A stretch of 64,000 bases of DNA from Chlorobiaceae bacterium (GTDB lineage Bacteria; Bacteroidota; Chlorobiia; Chlorobiales; Chlorobiaceae). Both the position numbers and the translations under genes were made by a program. The stretch's first letter is position 1, and each line of letters opens with the position of its first letter. This document shows positions 1 to 57,350 of this stretch, in pieces. The notes beneath the pieces are model-generated. The model saw nothing but the letters and a program-made list of their open reading frames with translations, was not told where the DNA came from and made no database searches. The DNA lies in the NCBI GenBank assembly GCA_013334865.1, contig JAAXWS010000002.1, forward strand, positions 62,001-126,000, read 5' to 3'.

Positions 1-3000
1 GCCGGCTACCGTGACCTGCTGCACGCCGTCATCTCCCTGGAGCACCCCGCTGCCGCCGGCTATCGTGATCGTCCCGCTGGCCTGGTCGAAGAGCGCGGTG
101 GTGCCGGCCGTGCCGTCGCCCATCAGGAAGGTGTCCGCAGCCACCGTGCCGGAGTTGTCCACGGTTCCGGCCTGCAGGTGAAAGTCGTTGCCGCCGAGGC
201 TGCTGCCGCTGCCGAGCGTCAGCTTGCGGGTTCCGGTCTTTTCTATGGTCTCGAAGCCGCTGAAGTCGTTCGACATCCTCATGTCCACGGTTGCGGCGTT
301 GAAGGTGAGCAGGTCGCTCCCGTTGCCTCCCATGACGCTTCCCGAGATGCTTCCCGCATCGATAAGCGTCAAGGTGTCGTTGCCTGCTCCCAGCTCCACG
401 CCGGCGTTGATCGTGCCGGCGACGGTGACCTGCTGCACGCCGTCATCTCCCCGGACCACCCCGCTGCCGCCGGCTATCGTGATCGTCCCGCTGGCCTGGT
501 CGAAGAGCGCGGTGGTGGTGCCGGCCGTGCCGTCGCCCATCAGGAAGGTGTCCGCTTCAGTCAGATTGCCGGAGTTGTCCACGGTTCCCGCCTTCAGGTT
601 GAATGCGTTGCTGCCCAGGCTCCTGCCGGTGCCGAGAGTCAAGGTCTTCGAGCCCGTCTTGTCGATCGTCTCGAAGCTTGAGACGTCGTTAGAGATCGTC
701 ATGTCGACGGTTGCGGCGTCGAAGGTGAGCTGGTCGCTCCCATTGCCACCATTTACGCTGCCGGAGATGCTTGCAGCGTCGACCAGTGTCAAGCTGTCGT
801 TGCCAGCTCCCAGGTCGACGCTCCCGTTGATCGTGCCGGCGACGGTGACCTGTTGCACGCCGCCATCACCCAGGAGCACCCCGTCGCCGCCGGCGATTGA
901 GATCGTCCCTGCGGCTTCATTGATCAGGGTGGTGGTGGTGCCGGTCGTGCCGTCGCCCATCAGGAAGGTATCCGCACCCACCGTGCCGAAGTTGTCCACG
1001 GTTCCCGCCTTCAGGTTGAAGGCATTGCTGCCCAGGCTCCTGCTGGAGCCGATCGTCAGTGTCTTCGATCCGGTCTTTTCTATGGTTTCGAAATTCGTGA
1101 ATATTTTGGAGGCTGTCATGTCCAGTGTCGCTGCATGGAAGGTGAAGGTGTCGCTCCCGTCGCCCCCATCGATGCTGCCGGAGATGCTTCCCGCGTCGAC
1201 CAGCGTCATGGTGTCGTTTCCCGCCACCAACGCGATGCTCCCGGTGATCGTGCCGGCGACGGTGACCTGCTGCACGCCGCCATCACCCTGCAACACGCCG
1301 TCTCCGCCGGCGATCGTGACCGTTCCGCCAGCTTCGTCGATCAGTGCGGAGGTCGTACCCGCATTCCCGTCTCCCATCCGGAAGGTGTCCGCAGCCATAG
1401 TGCCGAAGTTGTCCACGGTTCCGGCCCTCAGGTTGAATGCATTGCTGCCCAGGCTCCTTCCTGTGCCGAGTGTCAGGGTCTTCGAACCCGTCTTGTCGAT
1501 CGTTTCGAAGCCGATGAAGTCGTTCGATACCGTCATGTTCATGTTCTCGGCATTGAAAACGAGGGTGTCGCTCCCGGTCCCTCCGTCCACGCTGCCAGAG
1601 ATGCTGGCGCCGTCGACAAGCGTCATCAGGTCGTTACCCGTACCGAACGTGACATTGCCGCCGATACTGGATGTCCCCGACATTTCCAGCGTGTCGTCGC
1701 CTCCGGGGTCGGTTACCGTGTCATAAACGGGCGCACCGCCAGAAAGGCTGAGGGTATAGGCCAAGGTGTTGTAGTCCCAGTACTGCGTCGAGGGATACGT
1801 CGTTATTGCGGTAAGGTATCGCGCCTGCTGGTATGAGTCTGCGCCGAATCTCACCGAGCCGTCTATCCTTGAGCTCCCTGACATGGTCAGCGCATTCCGT
1901 TTGCCAGAATTCGTGTTGTTGGTGCCCACCTCGACCTTGCCCCAGCCGAACGCGATGTTGCCCGTCACCCGCGTCTGGTCGCTCATGGTCAGGGTGTTGT
2001 ATCCTTCGCCTGGTTCGGGAAGTATAACCGTGCCGGGTGCCGCATCGCCAAGGTTTGCATACTGGCGCCGATACATGCCACCAAGCTCGATATTGCCGAC
2101 GACCTTGGCATTGCCGGACATCGTGACCACGTCGGAGCCGGAACCGAGGTCGATGCCTCCTGTCAGCAGGGCGTCGCCCGATATCGAGAGCCTGTCGGGG
2201 ATTTCGACCAGGTCCGACAGGGTGGTCGCCCCATCCGGTATGTAGACGAACTGCCGGGAACTCGCCTCCATGTTGGGCTCGAGGACCGGCGAATAGATTC
2301 CCGCGTCCGGTATTTGATTGACCAAACCGTTTTCCATGAATTTCAGCGATACCTCACGGGAGAGCACCGAATAGGAGTTTCCCCTGCCGCTCAGGTCATG
2401 GGCGGTTATGTCGCCGGTGATCGAGAGATTCATGGGCCCCTCGCTCGCCCCGATGGCGACTGCATAGCCATACCCCGACACATCGATCTTGCCACCTATC
2501 GGAGCTGAACCCGCCGTGCTGAAATCGAGCATTTCAGTGTAATGGTCCTTTACTTTATCCGGCCTGTTCCATGCACCAATGATGCCATTCTGCGCGTAGA
2601 TGCCGAAACTCATCCCCTCGAGAGAAGGGTCTTGAGGATTAGAGCTTCCCCTTACGGTGATGGTGCCGTTCATCCCGCCGGTGATTTTTAGCAGGTTTTG
2701 CGTCATGAGTACATAGTCAGGCTCATAATACGCAGGAAAGCTGCTCTCGCTCTGGCTCATCGGGAAACTCCAGAGGCAGATGCCTCCGGCAAGGCCGCCA
2801 TAAAGGCGCCTGTTGATATTGAGCGGATTTGGAGTTGTGGCGGTTGCTGTGATCGTTCCGCCCATCTGGCCGAGGGACAGGCTTCCCCCGAGGATGCCGA
2901 CGGGTTCCATACCGGTTGCCGTGATCGTGCCGTCGAACCGGTTGATGACGAGCTCGTTCGTGTAGGCCTGTATCACCCCCGTTGCCAGATAATCCGCAGT

Positions 3001-51221: not shown

Positions 51222-51395
51222 GGGTGCGAAATCGGAAGTTGTGGGGCTAACAGCAAGAAAGCAAATCCGCAGTGATTACGGAAATCCGGTGCCGGCCGCA
51301 GGTAGGGTTTGAGTGTTTGGCGTTTCCGGGAGGGATTGGATTCGGGCTGATTTGAGATGGTCGTCAAGGAAGCGAAATATTCGAATGTCGTTCTT

Positions 51396-51653
51396 CAATT
51401 GCCCCCGGCTTCAGCTCCCCTATTCAGGAGGGATTCATCCCGACGGACATTCAACTTCTTATATATCTTCACAATTGCCCCCGGCTTCAGCTCCTCTATT
51501 CAGGAGGGATTCATCCCGACGGACATTTAACTTCTTACATATCTTCACAATTGCCCCCGGCTTCAGCTCCCCTATTCAGGAGGGATTCATCCCGACGGAC
51601 ATTCAACTTCTTATATATCTTCACAATTGCCCCCGGCTTCAGCCGGGGGAAGC
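51396..51653 (+). repeat. Tandem 76-bp repeat array, 3.4 copies
   Basis: Units start at 51396, 51472 and 51548 with exact 76-bp spacing and a fourth truncated unit at 51624. Each begins CAATTGCCCCCGGCTTCAGC and has a palindromic part around CCTATTCAGGAGGG, then GACATTCAACTTCTTATATA. Units differ by a few C/T changes. The last unit ends early in GGGGGAAGC, giving a perfect CCCCCGGCTTCAGCCGGGGG palindrome. Confidence 0.88.
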
Positions 51654-51777
51654 AAGATTCCCAATAATAATCCCGGGCTTCAGCCCAATATTCCCTGTTT
51701 TGGGCTGCAAGCGGATGTGAAGATTATTGGGCTGAAGGAAAGCGCCGATGGTTTTTTAAGTACTCTCTGCCCTCCCC

Positions 51778-51970
51778 GGGTTAAAACCCGGGGCAATTGA
51801 ATGTAAGAGAAATCTGGATGTCCGGGAGGCTGAAGCCTCCCTGAGCACCAGAGGGTTAAAACCCGGGGCAATTGAATGTAAGAGAAATCTGAATGTCCGG
51901 GAGGCTGAAGCCTCCCTGAGCACCAGAGGGTTAAAACCCGGGGCAATTGAAGAAAATGTAAGATTGAATG
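51778..51970 (-). repeat. Tandem 75-bp repeat array, inverted relative to the first
   Basis: Units start at 51778, 51853 and 51928 (75-bp spacing), the last truncated. On the minus strand each unit reads CAATTGCCCCGGGTTTTAAC and contains GGGAGGCTTCAGCCTCCCGGAC, so it is a relative of the 76-bp unit in opposite orientation. The region between the arrays (51660-51770) holds GGGCTTCAGCCCAAT and its complement-like ATTGGGCTGAAGG. Confidence 0.85.
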
Positions 51971-52099
51971 TCCGTCGTCCCGACTTGTCGGGACGGCTTC
52001 TCTCAATATCACAAGGTTCGCGTCGAAACCTGACCTTTAGCCTACCCTCCTCACCAAGCTAACGGCTTACCCTGCTGCGGGGCAGGCTTCTGTCCCCAA

Positions 52100-52136
52100 A
52101 AAGCAAAACCCCTGCGATTACGGAAATGCAGGGGTT
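52100..52136 (-). terminator. Rho-independent terminator for the 77-residue protein gene
   Basis: AACCCCTGC (52107-52115) pairs with GCAGGGGTT (52128-52136) around a 12-nt loop. Read on the minus strand it is followed by TTGCTTTTTGGGGAC, a T-rich tail. Confidence 0.7.
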
Positions 52137-57138: not shown

Positions 57139-57239
57139 GGCTGCAAACGGTTTTGAGATTAACGATCCTGAAGAGCTCTGTTAAAGTTATCTCTTTTCTG
57201 TGATTGTACCATCATGTGCCCGAAATGGAGCTTACGTAC

Positions 57240-57350
57240 CTCAGCCTCCCTGACATCCGGACATCTCTTACATTTCAATTGCCCCCGGCTTCAGCCGGGG
57301 GATAAAAGATCCCCCCTGAATTCCTCCCGGGCTTCAGCCCAATCCTCTTC
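57240..57350. repeat. Single copy of the dispersed CAATTGCCCC/GGCTTCAGCC element
   Basis: GACATCCGGACATCTCTTACA, then CAATTGCCCCCGGCTTCAGC followed by CGGGGG, then CCCGGGCTTCAGCCCAAT. This has the building blocks of both arrays at 51.4-52.0 kb and lies between the Nif11-like gene and the SDR gene. Confidence 0.75.

Follow-up and report, generated by a model that had tools for sequence, protein, structure and literature searches.

What could place two arrays of related short repeats, pointing in opposite directions, in a single intergenic spacer of a Chlorobiaceae genome? The window (the whole stretch of DNA that was analysed, 64,000 nucleotides) carries 3.3 copies of a 76-bp unit on the + strand at 51396-51643 and 2.3 copies of a 75-bp unit on the - strand at 51778-51951, each with 96-98% matches according to Tandem Repeats Finder. 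The arrays lie head to head, and their innermost complete hairpins are 124 bp apart (51649 to 51774). As a first-pass annotation of the window had proposed, they share the blocks CAATTGCCCC, GGCTTCAGC and GGACAT in opposite orientation, and the outer end is indeed a perfect palindrome with a stem of 8 (GTCCCGACTTGTCGGGAC, 51977-51994). Within the window CAATTGCCCC occurs eight times (0.10 expected) and GGCTGAAGCC six times (0.23 expected), while 13 hairpins with stems of at least 7 fall within 51380-51999, compared with 0.17 in shuffled sequences. Each array unit is a pair of hairpins in the order B-linker-A. A separate long tandem repeat, with a 417-bp unit, opens the window (1-1625).

Searches of the genome (2.42 Mb in 44 contigs) revealed that the hairpin pair is dispersed. 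There are 50 blastn matches to the array region, the window itself counted, and a covariance model finds 55 copies, which disposes of the possibility that the array is a unique duplication lacking other genomic copies. Among these 55 matches, copies occur both singly and in tandem, between genes, and the two palindromes of a pair differ in sequence; several copies sit downstream of genes. In aligned copies, a 5′ flank resembling TCCCATATTCAGG is followed by hairpin B, whose core varies; GGACATT and a linker rich in pyrimidines then lead to a foot tag and to hairpin A, which reads CCCCGGG-TTTCAA-CCCGGGG or a variant of it. The foot tags of 23 A hairpins of the genus are ATTG (10), GTTG (5), GTAG (3), GTGG (2), ATAG (2) and GATG (1). 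When 23 complete copies were aligned, 8 of 17 base pairs had changes on both sides, with 39 double-change cells compared with 12.4 after shuffling (0/500). The hairpins of the element are thus conserved by structural covariation.

Units are 97-100% alike within an array, and their sequences differ between arrays. In the arrays of this genome, the last copy is complete, and in internal copies hairpin A stops a few bases past its loop, leaving the 5′ half. That the break recurs at this point suggests either that slippage or template switching took place at hairpin A or that the copies go back to a single ancestral dimer, and both fit. Contigs C39, C30 and C19 end inside or at arrays (L072 1-361, L007 5-177 and L016 1501-1586, respectively), so the array copy numbers in the assembly are probably too low; the reading set out below would also explain such contig ends.

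A consensus search of other Chlorobi, as proposed in the first-pass annotation, extended these findings. With the covariance model, the element is present in at least 10 copies in each of the 21 genomes of the genus, which includes Chlorobaculum thiosulfatiphilum, and in none of 65 genomes of the sister genus.

No transposase gene is visible in the window as far as it was inspected, in agreement with the original description, but the genome does contain one. Of eight genome matches to the IS200-like Y1 family, one, on contig C31, lies inside a cluster of element repeats and is bracketed by element hairpins in inverted orientation. Its product is a Y1_Tnp protein (Pfam) that scores 68.2 bits against the NCBIfam model for IS200/IS605 transposases (NF033573, cut-off 55) and 25.6 bits against that for REP-associated tyrosine transposases (NF047646), far below the cut-off of 80. 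In place of the TnpA_REP gene that had been suggested as a search target, the partner is a Y1 gene of IS200/IS605 type. The HxH motif, the tyrosine and the glutamine are intact, and homologues of this protein are solved IS200/IS605-type transposases, with which its sequence places it. The signature Y---Q--HH is present in 16 of 17 aligned proteins, the exception (L089) having RH. This signature marks TnpA Y1 subclass 1.2 (Quentin et al. 2018, PMC6006769), for which the tables of that study enter REPs as ‘no’; its automated search, as described there, required GTAG or GTGG tags. A second Y---Q--HH gene (L021/L103, contig C35) was rejected as a partner, having no hairpins of the element kind around it.

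Genes of the C31 type are found in 11 of the 21 genomes of the genus at 51-100% identity, one copy each; multiple near-identical copies per genome, a trait of IS200/IS605 insertion sequences, were found in none of the 11. A type-A hairpin is located close upstream of the gene at 10 of 11 loci and close downstream at 9 of 11, counting one hairpin that has a mismatch and one that lies in direct orientation. The L089 gene has no such hairpin close by, and L088 has none downstream. Most loci also carry a half-palindrome, c (GGGCTTCAGCCCAAT or a near match), between hairpin A and the gene, and a mirror copy, c′, after the gene, often followed by a T run. Some gene loci have common neighbours and others do not, and the common ones suggest vertical descent. 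In the sister genus, a related gene sits beside a different palindrome (CATAGGGTGCAGCCCTATG; L094 1057-1386, L092 1308-1326), which in L094 repeats about every 104 bp.

Genomes with the gene contain more copies of the element (23-121, median 38, 11 genomes) than those without (10-66, median 15, 10 genomes), where all counts are lower bounds (Mann-Whitney p=0.010, for related species and with kinship not corrected for). This association points to the encoded protein as the likely mover of the elements. Two of the ten gene-less genomes depart from the trend, G005 with at least 66 copies and G017 with at least 39 and neither with a detected gene, implying that elements outlive the gene or that another enzyme moves them.

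The order of parts around these genes can be laid over the window as follows.

51394-51649, + strand: left arm, three tandem 76-bp units (B-linker-A), the last ending in a complete hairpin A; R1 matches at 51410-51492 and 51566-51649
51630-51649, + strand: complete hairpin A, CCCCCGGCTTCAGCCGGGGG, with foot tag ATTG
51661-51693, + strand: inner remnant of the upstream flank, with half-palindrome c in it (GGGCTTCAGCCCAAT, 51675-51689), matching DNA just 5′ of the transposase gene in this and related genomes
51694-51717, no strand assigned: putative remnant at the expected position of the transposase gene
51718-51737, - strand: inner remnant of the downstream flank, with half-palindrome c′ in it (ATTGGGCTGAAG, 51726-51737), matching DNA just 3′ of the gene in relatives
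51752-51757, + strand: T run, probably corresponding to the T-rich end that the terminator-like hairpin of the gene has at this place in relatives
51774-51793, - strand: complete hairpin A′ (CCCCGGGTTTTAACCCGGGG on the - strand)
51774-51994, - strand: right arm, two 75-bp units followed by a diverged one at the outer end, which closes with hairpin B GTCCCGACAAGTCGGGAC (51977-51994)
57227-57343, + strand: half of a second such locus (B-linker-A-c); G016 has a transposase gene in the orthologous spacer

The centre of the window locus holds c and then c′ in the right order. The repeat copies reported earlier from this centre are partly borne out, in that one full GGGCTTCAGCCC is present (51675-51686) and the second is a reversed partial copy only (51726-51737). 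In local alignments, the centre matches the upstream inner flank of the gene above all 200 shuffles at 8 of 11 loci, with best scores of 48 (L079), 41 (L080) and 40 (L088) and shuffle maxima of 26 for L079 and 22 for L080; the upstream flanks of L081, L087 and L089 do not exceed the 200 shuffles. Downstream flanks match at c′ above shuffles in five loci (L081, L082, L083, L085 and L086), for example with scores of 28, 27 and 28 for L082, L083 and L085 against shuffle maxima of 25, 23 and 22. The L084 flank ties its shuffle maximum, and the remaining loci miss or match elsewhere in the centre. Since the centre keeps both flanks that abut the gene, the mirrored arrays appear to be the two ends of such a locus, and this sequence evidence favours reading the window locus as a transposase locus that lacks its gene. 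The tandem amplification about a centre that was first described is real as regards the arrays, which are better read as the two flanks of this gene-less locus. No gene sequence was seen between c and the c′ remnant, so the locus may instead never have had a gene and be a minimal derivative that moved as such.

Gene-less c-c′ pairs with hairpins are present in at least three relatives (G014, G005 and G011; L267, L268 and L273), and G010 has such a pair without hairpins. At the G011 locus, whole gene-less head-to-head elements are arranged in tandem about 500 bp apart. An outward-facing composite (c′-A′-B′ ... B-A-c, about 200 bp) recurs in four genomes (L268, L269, L270 and L271). The related single copy noted near 57240-57350 is also real and spans 57227-57343. 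In G016 the orthologous spacer contains a transposase gene in the same orientation (L130 122-624), and the small gene downstream is one that we take to be nif11-like. This pairing fits an old locus that decayed differently, and separate insertions could also explain it.

The spacer that carries the arrays is 985 bp long. In the relatives where the same two genes are neighbours, 12 in all, it measures 159-221 bp, and the covariance model finds no element at this spacer in 22 loci from 20 relatives. The insertion at this site is therefore specific to this lineage. A 28-bp terminator-like stretch occurs on both sides of the insertion as an imperfect direct repeat (86%; 51258-51285 and 52100-52127); relatives have a single such stretch in the spacer.

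The window locus probably derives from a small IS200-like mobile unit whose gene it lacks. When intact, this unit would run from hairpin B through the linker to hairpin A and c, then the transposase gene, and on through c′, A′ and a linker to B′; the scattered intergenic hairpin pairs (B-linker-A) would be its non-autonomous elements. The Y1 HUH transposase is predicted to recognize a hairpin with its 5′-foot tag (ATTG-like) in single-stranded DNA, and by cutting and joining ends would move hairpin pairs. Such guide-tag recognition is modelled on IS608 and on TnpA_REP of E. coli. In the window, the gene between c and c′ would have been lost and the hairpin-pair units on both sides multiplied in tandem. 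Since hairpin A of the internal units is reduced to its 5′ half, slippage or template switching at that hairpin is the probable mechanism of this multiplication.

Amplification of terminator-like hairpins by plain slippage, without any transposase, is unlikely to be the whole explanation. The homogeneity of units within arrays and their divergence between arrays agree with it, as does the location of several elements downstream of genes, and slippage may well account for the tandem step alone. However, it does not account for dispersed copies whose linker is conserved, for the way inverted copies bracket one gene across many species, for the gene-less copies of the whole locus or for the absence of the element from the 65 sister-genus genomes.

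Very unlikely, in our judgement, is a classical REP/BIME cluster of a GTAG-type RAYT system. The REP/BIME likeness seen at the outset holds for the anatomy, comprising intergenic hairpin pairs that are dispersed and in tandem and a flanked Y1 locus; hairpin pairs, intergenic spread and tandem clusters are described for Pseudomonas (PMC3116915), and 5 of the 23 hairpin A tags are GTAG or GTGG. It fails for protein type and foot tag. The protein lies far below the REP_Tyr_transpos cut-off and above that for IS200/IS605, tags are mostly ATTG or GTTG, and class 2 proteins have a motif of the Y-x-x-x-NP type (PMC6006769) rather than Y---Q--HH. Most improbable is a functional RNA, bidirectional terminator or mRNA-stability element selected at this spacer, for which the strongly covarying hairpins and the resemblance of the relatives' c′ hairpin and T run to an intrinsic terminator could be cited, given that no Rfam family matches and that all relatives lack the element at this spacer, most keeping their own terminator-like stretch there.

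The preferred reading, a gene-less IS200-like unit, bears on subclass 1.2 at large. Profile A2 gives matches in 165 of 394 genomes from the phylum. Outside the family 54 loci were taken, of which 49 were scored after excluding two without an open frame (L202 and L210) and three without full flanks. GC-rich hairpins occur within 350 bp of the gene at 30 of these 49 loci (103 hairpins), compared with 8 hairpins at 5 of 49 in distal control windows; 19 loci have no such hairpin near the gene. With named loci added (65 of 73 scored), hairpin density in non-coding DNA is 3.99 per kb near the gene versus 1.31 per kb farther off, where hairpins are also present in 18 of 65 loci. Subclass 2.1-type Y1 genes, the negative control, have 2 hairpins in 2 of 12 loci (Fisher p = 0.009 versus 30/49) and were rejected as hairpin partners. 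The palindrome adjacent to the gene in one genus has 11 and 10 copies in two genomes and none in four others, and a second copy-number test found few copies, mostly clustered by the gene.

Foot tags were surveyed at 73 loci, with a frame found in 65. Hairpins were oriented by the loop alone, TT(T/C)A, which placed 59 of 67 (seven with a symmetric TTAA loop and one with GGAC were dropped), leaving 51 unique hairpins from 23 loci. The 5′ foot reads NT(A/T/G)(G/A) in 40 of the 51 and the other foot in 2, the commonest tags being ATTG (14), ATAG (8) and CTAA (7). GTAG or GTGG is found in none of the 51, compared with 5 of 23 for hairpin A of the element. The tag points away from the gene in 38 hairpins and the opposite way in 13. 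The description of subclass 1.2 as having no associated REPs thus does not hold for most members examined, which have hairpins around them.

On balance, we lean towards the view that in Bacteroidota, with Chlorobi among them, the IS200-like Y1 transposases of subclass 1.2 run a third, unlisted REP superfamily, made up of perfect hairpins with a TT(T/C)A loop and an ATTG/ATAG/CTAA-like 5′-foot tag in the order tag-hairpin-gene-hairpin-tag. If true, a REPtron lifestyle would have arisen on the IS200 side of the family tree, either independent of or ancestral to the GTAG/RAYT one, and many intergenic palindromes of Bacteroidota would gain a proposed mover. The open-licence literature, judged mostly from titles and the starts of abstracts, yielded no paper that connects REPs with Chlorobi or with subclass 1.2. 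The relation between classical insertion sequences and domesticated REP systems is described as an open question in the field (PMC8266576), and a class of IS200-like proteins having REP-like hairpins of its own would either link the two or represent a second, independent origin.

The element resembles known systems in different ways. It shares the Y1 HUH family (NF033573) and hairpins near the ends with IS200/IS605 elements, but has one divergent gene per genome and many gene-less hairpin copies. Subclass 1.2 as presented in PMC6006769 agrees in Y---Q--HH, short protein, low copy number and occurrence in Bacteroidota, but no REPs are tabulated there, whereas most members here are surrounded by hairpins. 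Like the CGTC-tagged REPs of PMC3733652, the elements are hetero-dimers, and some B hairpins, when read on the reverse strand, give CGTC-GGG. The same source states that CGTC REP stems almost always start with A-T pairs and that these families lack a transposase; stems here start with G-C, not two A-T pairs, and we rejected membership. By the marks of RAYT/TnpA_REP (class 2), the locus has the inverted flanking copies but neither the NF047646 match nor the GTAG/GTGG foot. Compared with the REPIN-RAYT systems, or REPtrons, of Pseudomonas and E. coli, the transposase is class 1 (IS200-like) rather than class 2, the tag is mostly ATTG/ATAG/CTAA-like rather than GT(A/G)G, and the two hairpins differ in sequence. 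Nevertheless, both have dispersed intergenic hairpin pairs, tandem clusters, a 5′-foot tag and a single Y1 gene with inverted copies on its flanks.
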